In this document: in pieces, positions 1,510 to 25,263 of the stretch
How positions within the stretch are numbered: the first letter of the stretch is position 1
Layout: the number at the start of each line of letters is the position of its first letter
Virus record (IMG/VR): IMGVR_UViG_3300036715_000954
Location: 1-25,263 of that record
Reading direction: 5' to 3' (one strand)
Length of the DNA stretch: 25,263 bases
Origin: a virus
Notes under the pieces: generated by a model
Told to the model about the DNA's origin: nothing
Databases searched by the model: none
Seen by the model: only the letters and a program-made list of their open reading frames with translations
Position numbers and translations under genes: made by a program

Positions 1510-2880
1510 ATGGCCTCTGCGCGGTACTGGCGAATCAACGGCCTGGAAGCCTGGGCCGGGGGCGACCTGGAGGTGTTCGCCTGGAACTGGTACGACGGCT
1601 CGAACCGCGTGGACGCGGCAGCGACCGTAACCAGCAGCCATGCTCCGATTGCAGGAAGCCTATCCGACCTGCAAGGAACATCAACCAGCGCGCGCTGCCG
1701 GTTTGCCGCGTCTGCCGTGCGCAGCGGCGGGTTCTACATTTTGTGGGACTTCGGCGCAGCCGTGACGGATATAACCCCGCGCATCGGCGCGGCTGGACTC
1801 GCAGAGTTCGTGGCCTATGGACGCCTTCAGTATTCAACCGATGGCGTGACATGGTTCACGGATGTGAACTTCGGGCGCGTGCTCTATCCTGGCCTGGAGC
1901 AGTTCACGCCATCAGACCCGATCCTCCGATATGAACCGACATCGAACTGGGACTCGGCATCGACAGGTTCTGCCGTAACCATCAGCGGGCGGAAGGCTAC
2001 GGTGTGGAGCGACCCGTCAGGCTACGTGCGAACGGACATCGCCAAGACCAACGGGCGGAGAGTTTTTGGTCTTCGGCTGGATGCAATCACCGCGCCACAG
2101 GTCTTCTTCGGCGGCATGGCAGCGCTGTCAGGTTGGGGCGCGTTCACCGGCGGCAAGCACTGGATTGAGTATGGGTACGACGACAATCTCTACTACTACC
2201 CGGACGGAACTGCTATCAGTGTCTCAGGCCAACCCGGCGCGCCACAAGCGGCAGGCGACATCATGTACTTCGATGTCAATCTCGACGATGGGACGATGGC
2301 GCTGCGGAAGAACAGCAGCGCATGGTCGAGCCGCGTGAGCCTGCCGAACTTCGTGGTCGGAGCAGATTACGTCATCGACATGCAGGCGCCATCTTCCAGT
2401 ACCAGTTCGTGGTCCGCTACCCTGCTCACAACAACCCAAGAACTCGCGGGCGTTGTTCCGTCTGGAGCGTCTGCCTGGGATATCCAAGCCGGTACAAACA
2501 TCTTCCACGATCCGACAGACTCGCGCGGCTCATCGCCATCCCGCGCCATGATCGTATCATCCGCGCCGGTTGACCCGGTGCGCATCGCTGCACCTAACCG
2601 CGTGCGCATGGCGCGTGATATGGAGTTCGGCGGCATCGGCACGATCTACGGCACCACCAAAATCAAGGGCACGCCCAACACACCGACCAAAGCGCGTGTG
2701 CGGCTGCTGCGTGACCGCGACGGGCTGCTCGCCCGCGAGACCTGGAGCGACCCGGCAACCGGGGCCTATAGCTTCACCGGCATCGACACCGCGCAGATGT
2801 TCACCGTGCTCGCGCAAGACCTCAACGGCGCGTTCCGCCCGGTTGCAGCGAGCCAACTCAAGCCGGAGGAACAGCCATGA
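1510..2880 (+). CDS. Multidomain virion protein with SPRY-like middle and carboxypeptidase-regulatory-like C-terminus
   Basis: This 456-residue protein starts with ATG 1 nt after the previous stop. Three parts are visible. Residues 1 to about 140 resemble a galactose-binding or discoidin-like beta sandwich (YWRINGLEAWAGGD, then FYILWDF). Residues about 150-340 contain an SPRY-like pattern (FFGGMAALSGWG, GKHWIEYGYDDNLYYYPDG). Residues about 375-456 match the small C-terminal domain common in phage tail proteins (TKARVRLLRDRDGLL, then GAYSFTGID). Such architecture suits an exposed, carbohydrate-contacting tail part. The stop overlaps the next start in ATGA. Domain names are by pattern only. Confidence 0.6.
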   Translation: MASARYWRINGLEAWAGGDLEVFAWNWYDGSNRVDAAATVTSSHAPIAGSLSDLQGTSTSARCRFAASAVRSGGFYILWDFGAAVTDITPRIGAAGLAEFVAYGRLQYSTDGVTWFTDVNFGRVLYPGLEQFTPSDPILRYEPTSNWDSASTGSAVTISGRKATVWSDPSGYVRTDIAKTNGRRVFGLRLDAITAPQVFFGGMAALSGWGAFTGGKHWIEYGYDDNLYYYPDGTAISVSGQPGAPQAAGDIMYFDVNLDDGTMALRKNSSAWSSRVSLPNFVVGADYVIDMQAPSSSTSSWSATLLTTTQELAGVVPSGASAWDIQAGTNIFHDPTDSRGSSPSRAMIVSSAPVDPVRIAAPNRVRMARDMEFGGIGTIYGTTKIKGTPNTPTKARVRLLRDRDGLLARETWSDPATGAYSFTGIDTAQMFTVLAQDLNGAFRPVAASQLKPEEQP

Positions 2881-3299
2881 CATGGAGCGTTTCCACCGCC
2901 GTGCTCGAAGCGCAGCTTGCAGCTACCATCGCTCAAGCCGACAGCGGCCCAGGCAATGCGCGGCTTCAATTCTTCACCAATGCCTATCCAGGCCCAGGCG
3001 CACCGGGCCAAGCTCCGCAGGCTGAGATCATGCTCGCCAAGCCCTGTGCCACCGTCACGGGCGGCGTGCTCTCGTTTGCGCTGGCATCAGAGCCCGGAGG
3101 GCTGGTGCTGACGGCTGGCATTCCGCGCTGGGTGCGCTGGCTGAGCGCATCGGGCGATCGCATCGCAGACGGCACCGTGACCGACGCATCCAGCGGCGGC
3201 GATGTGCAGATTACAGGCGGCACCACGCCATCGGGCGACAACAGCCCCATGCTGCTCGCGGGCTCCATCATTCAACTGGCATCAAGCGCCCTAACCTGA
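2877..3299 (+). CDS. Small beta-rich virion protein, paralogue of 22540-22947
   Basis: This 140-residue protein is translationally coupled by ATGA overlap to the upstream gene. By eye its second half (WVRWLSASGDRIADGTVT followed by SSGGDVQITGG) aligns with the protein at 22540-22947 (FRIYASDGT, then GTVTATGGGGDLQ). The N-terminal pattern of both (V..A.L.A, then A-L-x-x-x-T-x-A) also agrees. The two are therefore likely duplicates within one genome. It is probably a small virion part next to the tail hub gene. The function is unknown. Confidence 0.65.
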   Translation: MTWSVSTAVLEAQLAATIAQADSGPGNARLQFFTNAYPGPGAPGQAPQAEIMLAKPCATVTGGVLSFALASEPGGLVLTAGIPRWVRWLSASGDRIADGTVTDASSGGDVQITGGTTPSGDNSPMLLAGSIIQLASSALT

Positions 3300-3300
3300 C

Positions 3301-5184
3301 ATGGCGCAGACCGACCTCGTTTTTTGGCAGACGCCAGCCACCGGCAACCCGGTAGAGCTGGTGTTTGGCGACGACGGAGCACCGGTCACGCAGACCTACA
3401 GCGCCAGCGCGGTCGGATCAATCAGCGGCCTTGCCGGAACCATTCACGCACGCTGCGGCGTGCGGCTGGCCTGCGCCGGTTCCATCTCAGGCCTTGCGGG
3501 CGGCATCAACGTCAGCATTGACCTCAACGTCGCCCGCCCGACCGTTGGCCGCACCGTCAGCGTCGCGCAGCACGCGCAGCCGATCTCGATTGCAGAGCGC
3601 ACCGCAGACCAGCAGGCAGCGCCGCTGCGCCCGGGCGTGGTCGGCAAGCAACAGCAATCCGCGTCGCTCAGCGCCAGCACGCAAGACCGTGAACAGCAGA
3701 CCTTGACGCTGCGCACGGCGGCATTCTCCGCCTACAGCGAGGCGATGGGGCTCAGCCCCTGGGCACGCGCCGTGCTGTTCGAGGATGCGGGCCGTCTGCG
3801 CGCCCGCGCTGTTGAAGCGGAGCAGCAAGCCGATCGGCTGCGCGATGCCCGCGCCGCCCGCTTCGAGGATGCGCGCCGCCTGCGCCATGACCGCCTCAGC
3901 AGATTCGAGGAGGCGGCCTCGCGCCGCAGCGCCCACCACGGCAGCGCAGGCTACGGCATCCCGTGGCGTCTGCCCAGGGGCGGCAGGTATCAAGAGGCTT
4001 GGCCGCCGCGCCCTGGCGTGAGCGCAGCGCCGCAGCCGCCTGCACCACAGCCATGCTACATCCCGGCCATTCCTGCGCATCTGCTGTTCAGCCAGGCGGA
4101 AGATGCCACGCTGCCCGCGCATCTGCTGTTCATCTGCGACGGCTACACCGATCCCACCGGCCCGGTCGTGGTTCCTGTTCGGAGGGTATATATCGTGCTC
4201 AACAACGTCTCCCTGACCCGCGTCAGCGACAACCTGGACCTACCCGTCACCTCCATTAGCCTGTCTCTCGACATCAACTCATGGACATGGGGCTGGGATG
4301 CGCAGATGCCCGCGAGCGCCGAGGGCCTCGTGTCGCCAACCGCCATGCTCACGCCGGTTGAGCTCGAAGCCAGCGTCAACGGATTCTCGGTGCGCCTGCT
4401 CGCGGAAGGCATCTCACGCGAGCGCCGGTTCGGCGCAGCCACCATCCGCGTGACCGGGCGCGGCAAGAGCGCCCTGCTCGCAGCGCCCTATGCGCCGGTC
4501 ATCAACTACATGCAGGCATCCGCCTTCACCGCGCAGCAACTCATGGCCGACGTGCTGACCGCCAACGGCGTCGGCATCGGCTGGGGCGTCGATTGGGGAC
4601 TGACGGATTGGTCGGTGCCGTCTGGCGTGTTCGCATTCCAAGGCTCATGGATGGACGGCGTGGTCAAGATCGCACAGGCCGCAGGAGGCTACGTGCATCC
4701 GCACCCGACCGCGCAGACGCTGCGCGTGCGCCCACGCTACCCGCTGCCTCCGTGGCAGTGGGGCACGCTAGCCGCCGATGTGGTGCTGCCTGACGACGCG
4801 GTGGAGCAAGAATCGATCCAGTGGGTAGACCGCTCGCTCTACAACCGCGTGTTCGTGCGGGGCGAGGCACAGGGCATCCTCGGTCAAGTCACCCGTACCG
4901 GCACGGCGGGCGACATGCTCGCGCCGATGGTGGTGGACCCGCTGATCACCCATGCAGACGCTGCACGCCAGCGCGGTATCTCGGTGCTGTCGGACACCGG
5001 TAGGAAGCTCGAACTCAGCCTGCGCCTACCGGTCGCAGCGGACATGGGCGGCCTGCTCGAACCGGGCAAGGTAATCAGCTACCAAGACGGTGCTGCTACA
5101 CGCAAAGGAATTGTCAGATCGGTGAAGGTTGACGCCAGCTTCCCAAACGTCTGGCAAACCATCGGCGTCGAATCCTTCGCATAA
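3301..5184 (+). CDS. Tail hub / baseplate-hub-like protein with repetitive N-terminal extension
   Basis: This 627-residue protein has its ATG directly after the previous stop, with no clear ribosome-binding site, so coupling is likely. Residues 1-80 hold a duplicated GSISGLAG segment. Residues about 150-215 are a charged, predicted helical region with repeated F-E-D/E-A-x-R-L-R units. A Pro-rich linker with two PAHLLF copies follows (about 240-270). From about 285 the VYIVLNNVSLTRVSDNLDLP start and the later alternating beta pattern match tail-hub proteins of Nazgul/Sano-like siphophages. It probably caps the distal tail and contacts the tape measure and adsorption parts. Hub assignment is moderately secure. 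The N-terminal role is unknown. Confidence 0.65.
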   Translation: MAQTDLVFWQTPATGNPVELVFGDDGAPVTQTYSASAVGSISGLAGTIHARCGVRLACAGSISGLAGGINVSIDLNVARPTVGRTVSVAQHAQPISIAERTADQQAAPLRPGVVGKQQQSASLSASTQDREQQTLTLRTAAFSAYSEAMGLSPWARAVLFEDAGRLRARAVEAEQQADRLRDARAARFEDARRLRHDRLSRFEEAASRRSAHHGSAGYGIPWRLPRGGRYQEAWPPRPGVSAAPQPPAPQPCYIPAIPAHLLFSQAEDATLPAHLLFICDGYTDPTGPVVVPVRRVYIVLNNVSLTRVSDNLDLPVTSISLSLDINSWTWGWDAQMPASAEGLVSPTAMLTPVELEASVNGFSVRLLAEGISRERRFGAATIRVTGRGKSALLAAPYAPVINYMQASAFTAQQLMADVLTANGVGIGWGVDWGLTDWSVPSGVFAFQGSWMDGVVKIAQAAGGYVHPHPTAQTLRVRPRYPLPPWQWGTLAADVVLPDDAVEQESIQWVDRSLYNRVFVRGEAQGILGQVTRTGTAGDMLAPMVVDPLITHADAARQRGISVLSDTGRKLELSLRLPVAADMGGLLEPGKVISYQDGAATRKGIVRSVKVDASFPNVWQTIGVESFA

Positions 5185-10153: not shown

Positions 10154-10735
10154 TCATTGTGAATGCGCTTTCATTTTCTTCGCATTGGGAGCAACTGTCT
10201 TGATGGCGTCAGCCGAACAAATGTTATCAGTTGCCCACTTGCAAGCTGATTGCCATGCCTCCCATAGCCTTTGCAATTCATCATCCGAATATATGATTAC
10301 GTTCCCATCATCGTTCGCAACGTACCTATTAAGAAAAGACGGATCAGCGTCTATAGCTAATTTTGTTTTTACCCAAGCCACAAATTGTGTGTGCTCTGGA
10401 CCTCGAATAGCAATTTCCGCGTTCACGTCAGTACGATAAGAGCATCTAAAGCAATCTACGCAGTATGCGCAGGCGACGCAATCGGTGCATCGAAGGCATT
10501 CGAAGCATCCTGTACAGTTGTTGCATCGAGAGCAATCAATGCAGCCAGTGCAGCCAATGCAAGAATCGCAACTGGTGCACCCGATGCAATCCGAGCATCC
10601 CGAGCAATCAACGCAGTCAATGCATCCTGTGCATCCGTCATCATCAAGTTCCTTGCATCGTGCGTCGGCTTCCTCTTGGCTTTTGGTGCTATATGACCTG
10701 TTCCCTCTTGGTGAAACCTCAGACACGTATCGCAT
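10154..10735 (-). CDS. Cysteine-triplet repeat protein, 193 aa, unknown function
   Basis: Residues 35-98 contain 22 cysteines, exactly one every third residue (C-x-x repeated without a break; x enriched in Gly, Asp, Ser, Thr and Ile). A polar N-terminus (1-34) precedes it and a normal-looking 95-residue domain with several Trp follows (WVKTKL, LQRLWEAWQSACKWA). There is no signal peptide or membrane segment. DNA is visibly AT-richer than its neighbours, suggesting separate acquisition. The weak GAGG upstream and overlap with a tiny ORF (10719-10814) suggest coupling. Metal binding, disulphide solenoid or redox function are all possible. I do not recognise a named family. Confidence 0.8.
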   Translation of the reverse strand: MRYVSEVSPRGNRSYSTKSQEEADARCKELDDDGCTGCIDCVDCSGCSDCIGCTSCDSCIGCTGCIDCSRCNNCTGCFECLRCTDCVACAYCVDCFRCSYRTDVNAEIAIRGPEHTQFVAWVKTKLAIDADPSFLNRYVANDDGNVIIYSDDELQRLWEAWQSACKWATDNICSADAIKTVAPNAKKMKAHSQ

Positions 10736-16085: not shown

Positions 16086-16325
16086 ATGCAGCAAGCTCAA
16101 ACCGACGCACTGCGCCGGGCAATCGAGGTCGCCGGTGGGCTGACCAAGCTCTCCGCACTCATCGGGTGCTCGAACCAGCGAGTCTGGAACTGGACCGCAG
16201 CCGGACGCGCTCCCGTGAAGATGTGCCCAAGAATCGAGATGGCCACCGGCGTGCCGTGCGAAGAACTGCGCCCGGACATCAACTGGAGCTACATGCGGAA
16301 GCGGCTCCAAGGCGGTTCGCAATGA
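16086..16325 (+). CDS. Cro/YdaS-like HTH regulator
   Basis: ATG at 16086 has an ideal TAGGAGGTGAC upstream. The 79-residue protein has the YdaS/Cro pattern: ALRRAIEVAGGLTKLSALIGCSNQRVWNWTAAG with the helix-turn-helix over about 17-42, then VKMCPRIEMATGVPCEELRPD. YdaS-type proteins act as Cro-like repressors at the head of phage replication operons. Its stop overlaps the DUF1376 gene start in ATGA. It likely binds the palindrome at 16029-16049. Confidence 0.85.
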   Translation: MQQAQTDALRRAIEVAGGLTKLSALIGCSNQRVWNWTAAGRAPVKMCPRIEMATGVPCEELRPDINWSYMRKRLQGGSQ

Positions 16326-17182
16326 ACTACTACCCCTTCCACATCGGGGACTACGTCAGCGCGACCCGGCATCTAAGCTGGGAAGAGGATGCCGCCTTCC
16401 GCCGCCTGCTGGACGTGTACTACCTGACGGAAAAGCCGCTCCCGGACGACCTGCGCGCCGTGTGCCGCCTTGTCATGGCGCAGACCGAATCCCAGCGCGA
16501 AGCGGTGCGCGTGGTGCTGGAAGAGTTCTTCGAGCTGGCCGACGCCGGGTGGGTGAACAAGCGCGCGGACGAAGAAATCCAGGCGATGCTGGACAAGCAA
16601 CAGAAGCAGCGCGAGAAGGCAAACAGGCGGTGGGATATGCAGCGCGCGAAGCCCGGCAATGCCGCGCCAGGCAATGCCGCAGCAGGCAATGCCGCAGCAT
16701 CGCCGGATTATGCCGTGGCATGCGATTTCGATGCCGTGGCAATGCCACCAACACCAACACCAACACCAACACCAACACCAACACCAACACCAACACCAAA
16801 AGTAGATAAGCGCACGCAGAGCGTGCGCAATGGCGCGCGCATGGCGCGCATCGCCGGATGCCCGCCCGACGTTGACCCGCAGACGTTCGGCGACTGGCTG
16901 GAAGTCCGCAAAGCCAAGAGAGCAGGCCATGTCACTCAGACCGTGATCGACAGCATGAGACGCGAGGCGGGAAAAGCCGGGATCAGCCTGCAAGACGCTG
17001 TCGCGCACTGCTGCCTGGCTGGATGGCAGGGCTTCAGGGCGGACTGGTACACGTCGGCGAAGCAGTCTGGCGGGCATCAGACGGCAGGACAGCGGCCGTT
17101 TTTCAACAAGCAGATCGCGCTGGAGGAAGAAAACCGGCGCGTGGCGCAGGAATGGCTGGCACAACAAAGGAGCAAGGCATGA
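16322..17182 (+). CDS. DUF1376 (YdaU-like) protein with Pro-Thr repeat linker
   Basis: ATG at 16322 overlaps the upstream stop in ATGA, and the longer in-frame reading is rejected. Residues 1 to about 85 form the DUF1376 domain (MNYYPFHIGDYVSATRHLSW, then LLDVYYLTEKPLPDD), often found N-terminal to phage replication-initiation modules. A low-complexity linker follows, with three GNAA units and then eight Thr-Pro pairs encoded by a hexanucleotide repeat. The C-terminal part (from about 165) has ARIAGCPPDVDPQTFGDWLEVRKAKR, and its end (FRADWYTSAKQ) suits DNA binding. It is likely a replication-initiation protein of the phage. The DUF1376 call is firm and the role is inferred. Confidence 0.85.
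   Translation: MNYYPFHIGDYVSATRHLSWEEDAAFRRLLDVYYLTEKPLPDDLRAVCRLVMAQTESQREAVRVVLEEFFELADAGWVNKRADEEIQAMLDKQQKQREKANRRWDMQRAKPGNAAPGNAAAGNAAASPDYAVACDFDAVAMPPTPTPTPTPTPTPTPTPKVDKRTQSVRNGARMARIAGCPPDVDPQTFGDWLEVRKAKRAGHVTQTVIDSMRREAGKAGISLQDAVAHCCLAGWQGFRADWYTSAKQSGGHQTAGQRPFFNKQIALEEENRRVAQEWLAQQRSKA
16747..16799 (+). repeat. ACCAAC hexanucleotide tandem repeat (8 perfect units)
   Basis: Eight exact ACCAAC units (16747-16794) plus a partial ninth, lying in frame within the DUF1376 gene and encoding Thr-Pro pairs. Because units are 6 nt, gain or loss changes linker length without breaking the frame. Confidence 0.95.
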
Positions 17183-20324: not shown

Positions 20325-20731
20325 TGATGCCGGAGATTGTCGATTTGCTCGGGCACGGGGCGGCTGCGCGCCTTGCCTTGTCCTTCAATGGCCGTGAAAT
20401 CCGAGTTCCATCCCGTCACCAAGGCCGCACGTGGGATGCGCTGGTGCAGGCCATCGGAGCCGAGGCCGCCGCCCGGTTCTGCGAGTACTTCAAAGGCGAG
20501 CGGGTCTATGTGGCCAGCAGCCAAAAGATGCACACTGAGCACAATCGCCGCCGTGCTGCTGAGATGCGCGCGCAAGGCAAGAGTTGGTCAGAGGTGGCGA
20601 AGGCACTCACGCGCCCGACTGGATACACCGAGCGCGGGGCGCGCAAGCTGCTGGAGAAAAGCGGGTCGGCTGCGTTTGCGTCGCTTCCGCTGTTTGGTGA
20701 CGAGGCGCCGGACTTAGTTCCGAACGGATGA
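20324..20731 (+). CDS. Mor-like DNA-binding protein between terminase and portal
   Basis: ATG at 20324 overlaps the terL stop in TGATG, with GGGAGG upstream. The 135-residue protein resembles Mor-family activators: WDALVQAIGAEAAARFCEYF, then GERVYVASSQ, and a terminal helix-turn-helix (MRAQGKSWSEVAKAL, then TERGARKLLEK). Mor proteins activate middle or late transcription in Mu-like phages. Its location inside the packaging cluster suggests it may act on late genes. The family call is moderately confident. Confidence 0.6.
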   Translation: MMPEIVDLLGHGAAARLALSFNGREIRVPSRHQGRTWDALVQAIGAEAAARFCEYFKGERVYVASSQKMHTEHNRRRAAEMRAQGKSWSEVAKALTRPTGYTERGARKLLEKSGSAAFASLPLFGDEAPDLVPNG

Positions 20732-22533
20732 TGGAGCGACAGGAAACATCATCGAGCATCATGGCACAACCACCGACCGCATACACCTCAGCCGTATCCA
20801 TCGAGCGGGCATTAGCACGATTCGGGTGGCTCGGGGACGCCGATGAAGTCCTCGCTCAGCTCGGAATCGACCGCAACAAGCTTCGTCGGATTGCAGATGA
20901 TGATGAGGTGTCGGCAGCGCTGGATACGCGCCGCGATGCCGCGCTCAATACGCCGTGGCGCATCGAGCACGACCAATCGCGCGCGCGGCAGTTCTTTACG
21001 GATGCGGCGTCGGGTGCGATTCCAGCCATCATGTCGGCAGCTTGGGGCGCTGTCCCGTATGGCTACAGCGTGTTCGAGGTTGTATATGCGGACGCAGGTG
21101 GAGGCCGGATCGCCATCGGAAGCATCATCGAGTGCCCGTTCGAGTGGTTCATGCTGCGGCCTGACGGCTCGCTGCTTTGGCGCAACGACCTTACTCAAAC
21201 CGACCCGCGCAAGTTCTTCGCCATCGTTCACCAGGGAAGCTTGCGCAAGCCGATGGGCGAGGCCCTGCTGGCAAAAGCCTATTGGCCGTGGTATTTCAGA
21301 ACCCACGGCTGGCGCTTTTGGGCCAAGTTTCTTGAGCAGGCCGCCGTTCCGCTGCTAGTTGGGCGCACGCTCTCGGACAAGCAGGCGATGGTGGAGATGC
21401 TGCGCAGCCTCTCGAGCGGGCCGGTGGCAGCGCTTGACCGAGATGAAGAAATCGTCTCGGTCGATACTCCGGGCAACAGCCCCAACAAGTTCACCGAGTT
21501 CGAGATTGCCTGCACCCGGAGAATACAACGCCTGATCCTTGGGCAGACGCTCACCAGCGGAACCGACGGCGGAAGCGGCAACCGCGCATTGGGCGAGGTT
21601 CATGACGAAATCCGCCAGGAAAAGCGCCGCGCCGATATTCGCTTGCTCACTGACGCCGTGCAGCGGGTACTTGACACCCTGGCCGCGCTCAATGCCTTGC
21701 CAGCGCCTCGATTCGTCATGGAGGATGAGGCCGGATTGCAAATGGATCGCGCAAAGCGCGATGAAATCCTTGTCCGATCCGGGATGCTCCAGTTCACGCG
21801 CCGCTACCTCGAGGAAAAATACGGCCTGGAGCCGGATGACTTCAATGAACTCACGCCGGATCAGGCGGCGGCAGTTGCAGACGTTGGCGTCGGTGCGGGA
21901 GGCCCTCCGGCGCAGCCGGTAGGCGCTGGCATGGCGGCAATATTTGCAACTCAAGACGCGCCGCACAAACCAGACCGCCCGCGCTTCACCGCAGGCCAAC
22001 AGGCCATCGAGGATGAGATTGAGCGCATCCTGCCGTCCGTGGCCAGCCCGATCGATTCCGCCGCTATCAGGTCCGCCATCATTGGTGCGGAGAGTGTGGG
22101 CGACCTGTACGAACGACTGGCCGTCGCCATGCGCGATGCGGATGCCTCTAAGTTCGGGCAAGTATTCGAGCGAGCCATATTCGCCGCCGATGTGATGGGA
22201 TATCTGCATGCAGGCGGAAAAGCGCAAACGAGCGGAGAGGCCGCATCCGCACCGACGGTAAACCTTACAGCGCCCATCACGATCAACATGCCTGAGCAGC
22301 CCGCTCCGGTCGTGCGCATGGAGGCCGCGCCCGCGCCGATCGTCAACGTCGAACCGCCTGTTGTCAATGTGCAGGTCGCAGCTCCAGAGGTCAGCTTCAC
22401 CGCCGAAGTGCCACCCGCGCAAGTTGTGGTGGCACATCCGGCCCGCGCCATTCAGACCGTCGAGCGCGATCCGAACACCCTCGAAGTCACACGCACCGTC
22501 ACGACCTACGAAACCGACCAACCCAAGGAGTAA
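20728..22533 (+). CDS. Portal protein, DUF935 / Mu gp29-like, with V-N-V repeat tail
   Basis: This 601-residue protein forms the dodecameric channel through which DNA enters the capsid. The DUF935 family pattern is visible: VSIERALARFGWLGD, ALDTRRDAALNTPWRIE, then WGAVPYGYSVFEVVYA and FAIVHQGSLRKPMGEALL. The C-terminal 110 residues form an unusual Pro/Val-rich tail with repeated APVV, NVEPP and VNV units. The start overlaps the Mor-like gene stop (ATGATG). The Mu-type portal next to a non-Mu terminase context is notable. Confidence 0.85.
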   Translation: MMERQETSSSIMAQPPTAYTSAVSIERALARFGWLGDADEVLAQLGIDRNKLRRIADDDEVSAALDTRRDAALNTPWRIEHDQSRARQFFTDAASGAIPAIMSAAWGAVPYGYSVFEVVYADAGGGRIAIGSIIECPFEWFMLRPDGSLLWRNDLTQTDPRKFFAIVHQGSLRKPMGEALLAKAYWPWYFRTHGWRFWAKFLEQAAVPLLVGRTLSDKQAMVEMLRSLSSGPVAALDRDEEIVSVDTPGNSPNKFTEFEIACTRRIQRLILGQTLTSGTDGGSGNRALGEVHDEIRQEKRRADIRLLTDAVQRVLDTLAALNALPAPRFVMEDEAGLQMDRAKRDEILVRSGMLQFTRRYLEEKYGLEPDDFNELTPDQAAAVADVGVGAGGPPAQPVGAGMAAIFATQDAPHKPDRPRFTAGQQAIEDEIERILPSVASPIDSAAIRSAIIGAESVGDLYERLAVAMRDADASKFGQVFERAIFAADVMGYLHAGGKAQTSGEAASAPTVNLTAPITINMPEQPAPVVRMEAAPAPIVNVEPPVVNVQVAAPEVSFTAEVPPAQVVVAHPARAIQTVERDPNTLEVTRTVTTYETDQPKE

Positions 22534-22539
22534 CCCATC

Positions 22540-22947
22540 ATGGCTATCCAGTTTTCTGTTCCCGTCCGCAACGCCCGTCTCGACGCCATCGAAACCGCCA
22601 TCGGAACGTCTGCAATCCTGAAAATCCGCACCGGCGCAGCCCCGGCATCGTGTGCCACGGCAGACTCCGGCACCGTGCTCGCAACGGTCAACCTTCCCTC
22701 TGACTGGATGGTAAACGCTGCATCCGGCAGCAAGGGCATGTCCGGGACGTGGCAGGACACAAGCGCCGATGCATCCGGCACTGCCGGGCACTTCCGCATC
22801 TACGCCAGTGACGGCACCACATGCCACCTGCAAGGCACGGTCACGGCGACGGGCGGTGGCGGCGACCTACAAGTCGATAACGTCAACTTCGCCGTTGGTC
22901 AGAGCTTCACCGTGACCAGCTTCACCCTGACCGACGGCAACGCCTAA
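22540..22947 (+). CDS. Small beta-rich virion protein, paralogue of 2877-3299
   Basis: This 135-residue protein starts 7 nt after the portal stop, with AAGGAG at the end of the portal gene. Its pattern (ILKIRTGAAP, then GHFRIYASDGTTCHLQGTVT and GGGGDLQVDN) aligns with the protein at 2877-3299, indicating duplication. It may be a decoration or fibre-base protein. It begins a set of structural genes inserted between portal and the head morphogenesis gene. Function is unknown. Confidence 0.65.
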   Translation: MAIQFSVPVRNARLDAIETAIGTSAILKIRTGAAPASCATADSGTVLATVNLPSDWMVNAASGSKGMSGTWQDTSADASGTAGHFRIYASDGTTCHLQGTVTATGGGGDLQVDNVNFAVGQSFTVTSFTLTDGNA

Positions 22948-22953
22948 ACGATC

Positions 22954-23760
22954 ATGGCAATAACCACACTCGACCAACTGCTGGCTGGGATGCTGCCGCC
23001 TGCGTCCATCGTCAAGGCCGCAACGCCAACGCTGGTCGCGGGCCGACCGCAGAGCTTGTTCTACCTCGCGGGCGCACCCGGGGCGGCTGTTGCGCCGTCC
23101 TCTAATCTTGCGGGAACCGCTCTCTCCAACTACGCGGGGCAAATACCTTTCCCTTCCGCAGTCTACGGCGAGAACGTCAATCTGGCGCGATTCCAGGCCC
23201 AGGCATCCATCGCTGGCACGCTCATCTTATGCGACCGGCTCTGGCACAACTCGGGCTTGAGCCTGACCACAACGGCCGCGCAGACGATCAACTCGGTGAC
23301 GTGGCCCGCGCGCGATGCAAGCGGCGCGAGCAATGGAAACCAGGTTCTGATCGGCCTCGAGGTCACGACAGCAACCGGATCGGGAACGCCAACTTTCACC
23401 ATGTCCTACACCAATCAGGTTGGCCTGGCTGGTCAGATTGGAACCGGCATTCTGACAGGCGTTGCGTCATCAGCTGTAGGGGCGTTCTATCCTATGGGCC
23501 TGGCCGCTGGAGATACCGGAGTGCAATCGGTGCAGACCTTCACCCTCTCGGCCTCGTGGACATCCGGAGCCGCCTCGCTGGTTGCATACCGAGAGATCGC
23601 GCGGTTGGAAATCACGTCATCGAACGTGCCAGCAGCCATCGACGCGATCACCTCCGGCATGCCGCGCATGTATGACGGCAGCGTGCCGTTTTTGCTGTTC
23701 GTTCCTTCTGCCACGACGGCGAGCAACATCAGCGGGCACGTGGTGTACTCGCAAGGCTAA
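22954..23760 (+). CDS. Virion structural protein, 268 aa
   Basis: The product is Ser/Thr/Gly/Ala-rich, without signal peptide or membrane span. It starts with a short helix (MAITTLDQLLAGMLPPASIV) and continues as a beta-type protein (TLVAGRPQSLFYLAGAPG, then NVPAAIDAITSGMPRMYDG). Similar proteins sit near portal genes in several siphophages and are thought to be virion components. Its stop is 3 nt before the repeat protein. The role is inferred from context. Confidence 0.65.
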   Translation: MAITTLDQLLAGMLPPASIVKAATPTLVAGRPQSLFYLAGAPGAAVAPSSNLAGTALSNYAGQIPFPSAVYGENVNLARFQAQASIAGTLILCDRLWHNSGLSLTTTAAQTINSVTWPARDASGASNGNQVLIGLEVTTATGSGTPTFTMSYTNQVGLAGQIGTGILTGVASSAVGAFYPMGLAAGDTGVQSVQTFTLSASWTSGAASLVAYREIARLEITSSNVPAAIDAITSGMPRMYDGSVPFLLFVPSATTASNISGHVVYSQG

Positions 23761-23763
23761 CCT

Positions 23764-24918
23764 ATGACCGCCGCCGTGCAGATCAACGGCTGGCTGAAGG
23801 CGCGGTACATCAAACGCAGCGCCGCGCAGACCTACGCGCGCATTTCCTGGGGCGACTGGGACAACACAGAGGCGCAGGTTTGGGGCGCATGGATTTTCGG
23901 ATCTATCGCAAGCGACCCGGGAACGGGTACGCTGGCCGCGACCCTGGGCGCGGCATCGGTATCTGCAAAGGGACGCCTGGAGATAAAAGGCACCGCCAGC
24001 GCGACGCTTGCCACCCTGACCGCATCCGGCAGCGCTGCGCTGGCCATCAAGGCTCATTGGGCGGCAACGCTCGATGCGGCGCTGCTGTCGGCATCGGGAT
24101 CGTTGGGGTCGGCAGGCATCAATGGCGCGCTTGATGCAACGCTGGAGCAGGTTGTAGCCATCGGAACGGGTACGCTGGCGATCAGCGGTCAAGGGGCGGC
24201 TGTGCTGGCCGGTGCCACTCTGTCGGCATCCGGCGCGCTTGCGATCAAAGGGCAAGTGGCCGCAGCGCTTGCATCCGCAATCGCATCAGCCTTCGGCTCG
24301 ATTGAAATCCGCGCGCAGGCGTCCGTGACGCTGGCCAACGCCACAGCGGGCGGGGCCGGGCAGCTTGCCATCGGAGCTCAGACAGCAAGCATGCTTGAGG
24401 CTGCTGCACTCTCGGCGACCGGAGCGATTGCCGTGCGTGGGCAGGTGGCAGCGATGCTCTCAGACGCAGCGATTGCGGCCACGGGCATCCTTCGGATCCG
24501 CGCGCAGGCATATGAGACGCTTGCGGACGCCAGCATGACGGGCACTGGGGCGCTGCGCATACGAGCGCAAGGCTGGGCCGTCCTTGACGACGCGCTGTCA
24601 GCGGGCGAGGCCGCCTTGGCCTTGGCCGCGCAGATGACCTCCGGGCAGCTTGGGGACGCCATCTGCGCCTCCGGTGGGATGCTTGCTATCCGGGCGCAGG
24701 GCGCGGCAACTCTCGCCGAAGCATCGTGCATGGCTGAAGGAGCGTCAAACAGCCCGTCGCTATCGCTCGCCGCCATCGATGCACTGGCCGCTGCCGTGTG
24801 GGCGCAGCCGCTGCCGCTGCCAGACTCGCCACCAGTATACGCACCCGGAGCAGGCATGTTGTCCGCGGCAGAGATTGCCCGCGCCGCGCACGCGGTATGG
24901 GCGCGGGGCCTGCCATGA
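23764..24918 (+). CDS. 21-residue tandem-repeat virion protein
   Basis: Residues 1 to about 55 form a distinct head (INGWLKARYIKRSAAQTYAR, then WGAWIFGSIASD). From about 57 to 325 there are around a dozen imperfect 21-residue repeats with the motif A-x-L-x-x-A-x-L-S-A-S-G-x-L-A-I-K/R-G/A-Q, strongly Ala/Leu/Gly. The C-terminus has IDALAAAVWAQ and AAEIARAAHAVWARG. Such repeats build extended beta or solenoid rods, so a fibre or whisker is plausible. The same style of repeat appears at the N-terminus of the tail hub. It overlaps the next gene in ATGA. Confidence 0.7.
   Translation: MTAAVQINGWLKARYIKRSAAQTYARISWGDWDNTEAQVWGAWIFGSIASDPGTGTLAATLGAASVSAKGRLEIKGTASATLATLTASGSAALAIKAHWAATLDAALLSASGSLGSAGINGALDATLEQVVAIGTGTLAISGQGAAVLAGATLSASGALAIKGQVAAALASAIASAFGSIEIRAQASVTLANATAGGAGQLAIGAQTASMLEAAALSATGAIAVRGQVAAMLSDAAIAATGILRIRAQAYETLADASMTGTGALRIRAQGWAVLDDALSAGEAALALAAQMTSGQLGDAICASGGMLAIRAQGAATLAEASCMAEGASNSPSLSLAAIDALAAAVWAQPLPLPDSPPVYAPGAGMLSAAEIARAAHAVWARGLP
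23932..24740 (+). repeat. Coding tandem repeats of about 63 bp
   Basis: About a dozen degenerate 63-bp units encode the 21-residue repeats of the structural protein. They vary at the base level, so they are old rather than recent duplications. Confidence 0.7.
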
Positions 24919-25175
24919 CGACGGCGGGCGCGAGACTTCGGTCGCTGGCTGGGCGGGATGGACCGACAGGCGCACTGCTGCTGATGATCAGCAGTGGAGC
25001 AACCGCAGGCGCAGCGCTGGTTTCCTACTCTGGATTGCCTGTTGGTTCTGCTTCCGATCACTTGATGGTAGACAGGGCGCAGCCGTGGCAAGGCGGTACG
25101 TTTGGATTTGACTACGACAGCGTGCGCAGGAATAGGCCGCGCCGCAAGAGGGATGACGAACTGATATGGCTGTGA
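24915..25175 (+). CDS. Small structural-region protein, 86 aa
   Basis: ATG at 24915 overlaps the stop of the repeat protein gene in ATGA. A Gly/Ala/Ser-rich middle (GALLLMISSGATAGAALVS) could be a weak membrane segment or beta strand pair. The end is very basic (RRNRPRRKRDDELIWL). Its stop overlaps the next start. The function is unknown. A linker or chaperone for the fibre-like protein is possible. Confidence 0.6.
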   Translation: MTTAGARLRSLAGRDGPTGALLLMISSGATAGAALVSYSGLPVGSASDHLMVDRAQPWQGGTFGFDYDSVRRNRPRRKRDDELIWL

Positions 25176-25263
25176 AGGTTCCACTCGACGACCCGGCGTC
25201 GAAAATCATTGCCGATCTGCGCAGCCAGAACGTCACGCTGCCGGATGTGTTCTACGCGCTCGA
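25166..25263 (+). CDS. Start of a probable head morphogenesis (MuF-like) protein, cut by window end
   Basis: ATG at 25166 has GAGGGA upstream and lies inside the end of the previous gene. The 32 visible codons (MAVKVPLDDPASKIIADL, then NVTLPDVFYAL) match the N-terminus style of MuF-like proteins that follow DUF935 portals and help build the procapsid. Only the start is present, so this is an inference from position and pattern. Confidence 0.45.
   Translation, partial: MAVKVPLDDPASKIIADLRSQNVTLPDVFYAL

Follow-up and report, generated by a model that had tools for sequence, protein, structure and literature searches.

The gene P0001 lies within a stretch of viral DNA of 25,263 nucleotides (IMG/VR record IMGVR_UViG_3300036715_000954, positions 1 to 25,263), all of which is referred to here as the window. 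On balance, its product is probably, though with considerable reserve, the rod of an exchangeable virion appendage consisting of a base and a tethered rod, with the N-terminal anchor most likely docking on P0003, the product of the gene immediately upstream. The rod is most likely a short, stiff structure on the surface of this virus, which infects bacteria. The relevant features of the window are collected in Table 1.

TABLE 1 Features of the window around the rod gene and in the tail protein P0002
Feature	Position	Strand	Basis
GSISGLAG doublet in tail protein P0002, residues 39-67	3415..3501	+	Profile comparison; unrelated to rod repeats by profile
Portal protein (Mu type)	20728..22533	+	Pfam PF06074, E 1.4e-66
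P0004, phrog_3758 virion structural protein, first cassette gene	22540..22947	+	PHROGs E 3.6e-33; travels with P0003 and rod gene in close relatives
P0003, predicted jelly-roll protein, proposed base/docking partner	22954..23760	+	AF2 pLDDT 94.5; VIA Z up to 8.0; directly precedes rod gene in relatives
Rod gene P0001 (384 aa: N-terminal anchor, repeats of 21 residues, tip at the C terminus)	23764..24918	+	ORF/translation, relatives, codon-position bias
N-terminal anchor module, residues 1-46	23764..23901	+	High identity with L021-L026; HMM matches
About 13 units of 21 residues, each with three short predicted strands over most of the array	23932..24741	+	Lag-21 z 11.3; AF2 strands
C-terminal tip, two short predicted helices (335-346, 368-380)	24742..24915	+	AF2 model, low pLDDT
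Small ORF overlapping the rod stop codon (ATGA)	24915..25175	+	Sequence; residues 2-86 without family match
Start of SPP1-gp7/MuF-like minor head protein, cut by window end	25166..25263	+	Complete copy in L004 matches phrog_220, E 2.8e-55

P0001 carries an array of 21-residue repeats

The 21-residue repeats that had been proposed for positions 23932 to 24740 of the window, corresponding to residues 57 to 326 of P0001, proved to be real. The BLOSUM62 self-similarity at lag 21 was 1.175 (z 11.3, 33% identity), whereas 500 composition-matched shuffles reached no more than 0.35 anywhere between lags 5 and 69. The periodicity was echoed at lags 42 (z 8.8) and 63 (z 7.7), and in that range the only other lag with a z above 2.5 was, weakly, 66. 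About twelve units had been expected; fixed-frame slicing gave 13, with both ends slipping slightly in register, so that the count is about 13. The further expectation of Gln at the unit borders held for 9 of the approximately 13 units (residues 143, 164, 185, 206, 227, 248, 269, 290, and 312; step 21, final step 22), while seven other Gln residues fall outside this series. The repeats contain no Pro.

At the DNA level, the array was not detected by Tandem Repeats Finder even at the lowest score, and the units share a mean DNA identity of 39%, an underestimate in that the fixed frame of the comparison ignored register slips between units. Relatives of P0001 differ chiefly at codon position 3, with 60, 42, and 115 differences at positions 1, 2, and 3, respectively, between its repeats and those of the L011 relative, which indicates a real protein under selection. 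No match to P0001 was found in Pfam or NCBIfam, the best PHROGs hit had an E value of 0.28 and thus identified no catalogued tail fiber family, and the best PDB sequence hit, at E 0.08, was not significant. Searches of the phage collection by tblastn with P0001, L022, and L019, and of genome contigs with the P0001 alignment, returned nothing.

The rod units had also been linked to the GSISGLAG repeats at the N terminus of the tail hub, P0002, a phrog_6079 tail protein. The two GSISGLAG copies, at positions 39 and 60, are exactly 21 residues apart; the 21-mer profile scored on this region was equalled by 200 of 500 shuffles, and the proposed kinship was rejected as being at the level of chance.

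Relatives combine the same anchor with different repeats and tips

The P0001 alignment matched 20 loci in viral contigs. Full-length matches, designated type a, came from 14 of these and comprised 11 distinct proteins of 380 to 385 residues with 68 to 100% identity, a constant length that has to be read with the selection of the set by full-length match; three loci were identical to the P0001 of the window. The type-a repeats are, as judged from sequence, old, because in 121 of 130 comparisons a unit was most similar to the one with its own index in the other protein. A recent duplication of the window's repeats was rejected on this ground. The tip has changed little across the 11 distinct type-a proteins and is likewise retained in the more distant L046 and L051. 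Each predicted tip helix carries an AVW motif at its end or close to it, and this motif is possibly a partner-binding peptide.

The proteins of L021 to L026 match the first ∼46 residues of P0001 at high identity and then continue with other 21-residue repeats (type b). Their C termini are unlike that of P0001 in L021 to L025, and L026 ends at the contig end. Since these proteins pair a closely similar anchor with other repeats and another C terminus, P0001 is modular, composed of anchor, rod, and tip. The N-terminal module is conserved while the rest varies, and would serve for attachment; in L046, an extra ∼200 residues lie between anchor and rod. Residues conserved in the anchor include the W of its N-terminal motif and the W/F-F pair at its end.

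The number of units changes as well. In L022, the type-b repeats are near-identical 63-bp DNA repeats (10.4 copies, 82% mean identity), and the four distinct complete type-b proteins, of 427, 448, 448, and 469 residues, differ by 0, 21, or 42 residues. The anchor and repeats of L069 and L073 differ at two residues plus one inserted 23-residue unit, and their C termini are different. Whole-unit changes were therefore observed in type b and between L069 and L073, and none was seen in the window's subtype, which is constant at 380 to 385 residues. The ruler function suggested for repeat number is conjectural; repeat number does set protein length, as sister proteins with closely similar anchors differ by whole units.

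Periodic ORFs follow genes of the P0003 family

With P0003 as the query, 94 loci were confirmed among IMG/VR viral contigs, and 72 of the 80 best listed were examined; left out were four duplicates (L035, L036, L043, and L050), L077, which has no downstream ORF, and L054, L078, and L080, in which the match reaches the locus end or nearly does so. A next ORF was present at 70 of the 72 loci, and 61 of these ORFs were distinct and at least 160 residues long. An ORF was called periodic when its z was at least 5 and none of 200 shuffles scored as high. In these contigs, picked through P0003 and with 22 of the 72 loci belonging to the largest P0003 cluster, the ORF after the P0003-family gene was periodic in 50 of 61 distinct cases versus 4 of 373 among the remaining ORFs at these loci, and those four included one further rod-like ORF (L068) and one overlapping the L081 rod. 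When P0003 was clustered at 70% identity, 32 clusters had such an ORF, and in 25 of them half or more of the members were periodic, 4 being mixed. The most common periods were 21 (n = 21) and 20 (n = 12), followed by 14 (n = 5), 22 (n = 4), and 23 (n = 3), with single cases of 40, 16, 9, 28, and 12; 11 of the 61 ORFs had no clear periodicity.

An HMM of the anchor matched 36 of the 70 ORFs after P0003 and none of 1,683 others. It was seeded from nine of these ORFs, so that the 36 arise partly by construction, which does not apply to the zero. The remaining 34 had no match, although several resemble weaker anchors by eye; per cluster, 13 of 36 have a match. Anchored ORFs of 68 to 96 residues without a rod occurred at L058, L064, and L093. 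A wider anchor motif scan was weak, giving 14 stretches, of which nine were due to chance and five encode the anchor in frame (four already known with P0003 upstream, one cut at a contig end).

Two ORFs in this position had other repeats. The ORF at L099:7848-8684, after two P0003-like genes, has collagen-like Gly-X-Y repeats instead of 20-mers, and that at L063:4667-7903 combines a polysaccharide deacetylase domain (PF01522, E 3.2e-17) with a 40-residue periodicity.

Public phage records and genome contigs added few cases. P0003-like genes were present in 6 of 50,697 public phage records, and none of the five other than LR756502 had a plain anchor-plus-rod protein next to P0003. In the cultured phage PA-SR01, a 63-residue ORF is followed by a 675-residue protein (L176:8678-10705) with a 35-residue period (z 5.9), in which AVW motifs also occur. 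In ctCJ8213, two P0003-like genes precede a protein that its depositors name alginate lyase and whose N-terminal region is repetitive (period 22, z 4.3); this arrangement would fit a stalk bearing an enzyme. The 256-residue protein of ctuNt529 had no significant period (z 1.2), and ctEqG8 and Rctr197k had no rod in the next two genes. Among genome contigs, the P0003 search gave seven loci. Periodic downstream ORFs were found in L197, L200, and L201, a 73-residue anchor-like ORF without rod in L196, and no rod in L198 and L199; L195 encodes the same weakly periodic (z 2.4) 243-residue protein as L062. L195 and L201 come from Rubrivivax pictus and Leptothrix discophora, respectively, where the pair would belong to a prophage.

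P0003 is a predicted jelly-roll protein encoded directly before the rod

The AF2 model of P0003, built from 53 sequences, had a pLDDT of 94.5. Across the 53 members, the best Pfam E value was an unconvincing 0.026, NCBIfam gave no match, and in PHROGs a single member had a marginal match to the tail fiber protein family phrog_9942 (E 6.2e-4). With Foldseek, four rows fell below E 0.001, all of them birnavirus capsid proteins with a TM score of at most 0.21. The VIA rows were jelly-rolls and other beta-sandwiches with Z up to 8.0; among them were TNF/C1q-like lectins, the Sf6 tail-needle knob, and the phage 7-7-1 fiber tip (Z 6.1 to 7.3), and ExsF bound to its anchor peptide (9h3d) scored 6.0, the level of general jelly-rolls. 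The model thus suggests that P0003 belongs to the jelly-roll fold class, with no specific relative or family.

The gene directly upstream of the rod gene therefore encodes a predicted jelly-roll protein, which would be the base. Of the 20 loci of the P0001 alignment, which are close relatives of one another, 19 have a gap of 7 bases between the end of P0003 and the anchor gene, and the contig of the 20th extends just 5 bases upstream. The block P0004-P0003-rod is 73 to 92% alike in L041 and L045, while the portal and MuF proteins are down to 28 to 30%. P0004 was tried as a marker of the cassette and rejected as too broad: of the 68 loci returned, 63 were examined (L144, L153, L172, L174, and L175 were left out), and a P0003 match came next in 20 of the 63 by script, or in at least 22 when L122 and L124 are counted by eye.

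Paralogues of both proteins were observed. P0005, at the tail end (window 2877-3299), is a second phrog_3758 protein (E 9.6e-8) and a paralogue of the head-end P0004. At 14 of 72 loci (L096, L103, and 12 others), there are two or three P0003-family ORFs, as if the base were built from P0003 paralogues.

The repeats are predicted to form a beta-structured rod

The original prediction of a beta-solenoid was recovered by modeling of the full protein, and only the middle of the structure was confident. The AF2 run was of a monomer with a shallow alignment of 7 close sequences. It gave a beta-solenoid with three short strands per 21 residues, that is, per turn, through most of the repeats. The pLDDT was 82 to 89 over residues 141 to 220 and at least 70 over residues 121 to 240, but it was 48 to 69 in nearly all remaining repeat blocks and mostly below 45 at the termini, giving a mean of 59.6. 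The shallow alignment and the low outer pLDDT weaken the prediction, as does a bias of the program, which, according to PMC11795689, gives confident yet unrealistic solenoids with buried charges for perfect repeats. The repeats of P0001, unlike those, are imperfect. Moreover, charge is rare at their main hydrophobic positions 3, 5, and 13 (0.10, 0.02, and 0.01, respectively, over 143 summed type-a units), in which they differ from the stacked-charge solenoids described in the same source, where AF3 is reported to produce fewer false solenoids.

When the rod model was submitted to VIA (94 chains aligned), the top rows were parallel beta-helices, including 5lw3 (Z 22.4, rmsd 4.2, 294 residues), 2vbk (Z 20.5), and the P22 tailspike 1tsp (Z 20.0, rmsd 3.3, 284 residues), while the LpxD and GlmU helices aligned with an rmsd of 11.6 to 11.8. 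The helices of 5lw3 and 1tsp are right-handed and those of LpxD and GlmU left-handed; the handedness of the putative rod helix would be read from these alignments, not from coordinates. Foldseek with the rod model gave no match at E 0.001 in the viral and PDB libraries.

From the modeling, the repeats of P0001 likely form a beta-structured rod, and the chances that this rod is a single-chain beta-helix appear about even. If it is one beta-helix, its ∼13 coils would make a stub of ∼6 nm rather than a long fiber, because beta-helix rise is usually 4.8 Å per coil. Type-a and type-b repeats aligned in one register by profile comparison. A single fold or core for all rods of the family nevertheless seems unlikely from these profiles, because type b has Asp opposite the conserved Leu of type a.

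The repeats could instead build a homotrimeric shaft, either a triple beta-spiral or an interlocked triple beta-helix as in the adenovirus fiber and many phage fibers, to which every chain would contribute short strands, with P0003 as a trimeric base. This arrangement is rather unlikely, although three observations suit it. P0003 aligned to several trimeric folds: the TNF/C1q-like lectins and the Sf6 tail-needle knob are trimers, and so is the phage 7-7-1 fiber tip according to PMC12796354. The periods of the rods vary (14, 16, and 20 to 23), as would suit a shaft with variable loops, and the AF2 run covered the monomer only. Against it, the modeled monomer closes into a plausible helix of one chain, in which positions 3, 5, and 13 line up as hydrophobic ladders, and the window's repeats lack both Pro and the 15-residue spacing of the triple beta-spiral.

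A still less probable explanation is that the rod is a slippage-prone spacer under low constraint, or a partly disordered linker, and that the solenoid is an artifact of AF2. The solenoid bias for repeats noted above (PMC11795689), the mean pLDDT of only 59.6, the variable number of type-b units, which are 82% identical in DNA, and their Asp in place of the type-a Leu are all in its favor. The type-a units speak against a spacer of this kind, as they appear to be old (positional match in 121 of 130 comparisons, ∼39% DNA identity), change mainly at codon position 3, keep their hydrophobic and Gln positions, and belong to proteins of 380 to 385 residues.

Site on the virion and surrounding genes

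Three ORFs fuse the anchor to other virion proteins. In L083, it is joined to Phage_tail_L (E 1.1e-60), and in L090, it is followed by 20-residue repeats and an SU10 adaptor (E 1.5e-21); L055 has a weak anchor (E 0.69) in a protein of 1,742 residues, part of which matches phrog_6079, the family to which the window's P0002 belongs. As a virion site, the fusions point to the tail or neck and the window's gene order to the head. An improbable alternative is that P0001 serves in assembling or cementing the head or neck, as an elongated bridge from the portal region to the capsid, and is not an adhesin. Its gene does lie between those for the portal and MuF, the category of phrog_3758 is head and packaging, and L090 joins the rod to a head-tail adaptor, but repeat type, number, and tip vary among close relatives, which would be unusual for an assembly part, an upstream gene of L042 weakly matches the tail appendage family phrog_8094 (E 3.1e-4), and the fusion partner in L083 is tail-tip protein L.

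Downstream of the MuF-like gene, L004 carries protease, decoration, and major capsid genes. In the window itself, integrase, antirepressor, dUTPase, RecT, and YqaJ genes sit between two structural blocks, and the record (window 1-25263) therefore looks like a circularly permuted or cut temperate phage genome in which the stretch from MuF to the middle tail genes is missing. Elsewhere in the window, the complementary strand at 10154-10735 encodes a 193-residue protein with a long Cys-rich run of CxxC-type repeats (Tandem Repeats Finder period 27, 10532-10633) that could be metal binding, and nine perfect CACCAA copies at 16746-16799, within the ORF at 16166-17182, encode a Thr-Pro run and are a candidate slippage site.

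Comparison with known systems

One close parallel in arrangement is the adenovirus fiber on its penton base. As described in PMC12796354, it has a conserved docking N-terminal tail of ∼45 residues, a repeat shaft, and a separate base protein, as proposed for P0001, and adds a C-terminal knob. P0001 differs from it in that no globular knob is predicted and no significant match to solved structures was found. Its repeat also has 21 residues, not the 15 of the triple beta-spiral, and no 15-residue repeat was found in P0001. On the Bacillus exosporium, BclA/F-Anchor places an N-terminal peptide on the BxpB/ExsF jelly-roll trimer and carries a stalk of variable repeat number with a C-terminal tip domain (PMC10470788 and PMC11952670). 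That stalk is collagen on a spore and not on a virion, whereas P0001 has 21-mers without Pro and no Gly-X-Y stalk. By analogy, P0001 may work like both systems, but it is a member of neither, since it has another type of repeat and another sequence.

P22/Sf6-type tailspikes and other phage beta-helix fibers resemble P0001 in that parallel beta-helices are the best structural matches of the rod, and the P22 tailspike has an N-terminal attachment domain. Unlike them, P0001 is smaller, has regular 21-residue coils, and has no significant PDB sequence match. Gene 26 of the Pseudanabaena phage Pan4 likewise encodes a repeat protein (residues 301 to 580, lag 20, z 35) two genes after a P0004 homologue; its termini and unit differ, however, and it matches phrog_2295, which P0001 does not. 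No paper on such phage repeat rods was found by title and start of abstract in a literature search that left subscription journals mostly outside its coverage. Collagen-like prophage proteins of Escherichia coli represent a related idea (PMC3368898).

Proposed appendage

In the proposed appendage, the anchor (residues 1 to 46) would dock to the virion, and gene order suggests P0003, encoded immediately upstream, as the most likely partner. The 21-residue repeats would stack into a short beta-structured rod, predicted to be beta-helical, that holds the tip at a set distance. The tip, with its two AVW helices, would lie at the far end and bind host, glycan, or partner, so that display on the virion surface would serve adhesion or spacing. 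Tips are exchanged among relatives, and rods and tips would be swapped by recombination, with type b also gaining and losing whole units.

Extended to the family, this amounts to a portable and so far uncatalogued system of a conserved P0003 base and a tether gene, in which the anchor is kept and the rod type (units of ∼12 to 28 residues), length, and tip are swapped, so that a single docking standard is common to phages whose portals are quite unlike; this extension is put forward tentatively, at slightly less than an even chance. The principle of a base plus a tethered rod is already known from adenovirus and Bacillus spores. If the proposal is true, phages would have a natural plug-and-play display, with one conserved dock and interchangeable repeat rods, and a function would be given to the P0003 family, which has no Pfam or NCBIfam family and is rare in public phage records. 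Near-identical anchors with rods that differ by a single unit make the idea that repeat number sets length directly testable.
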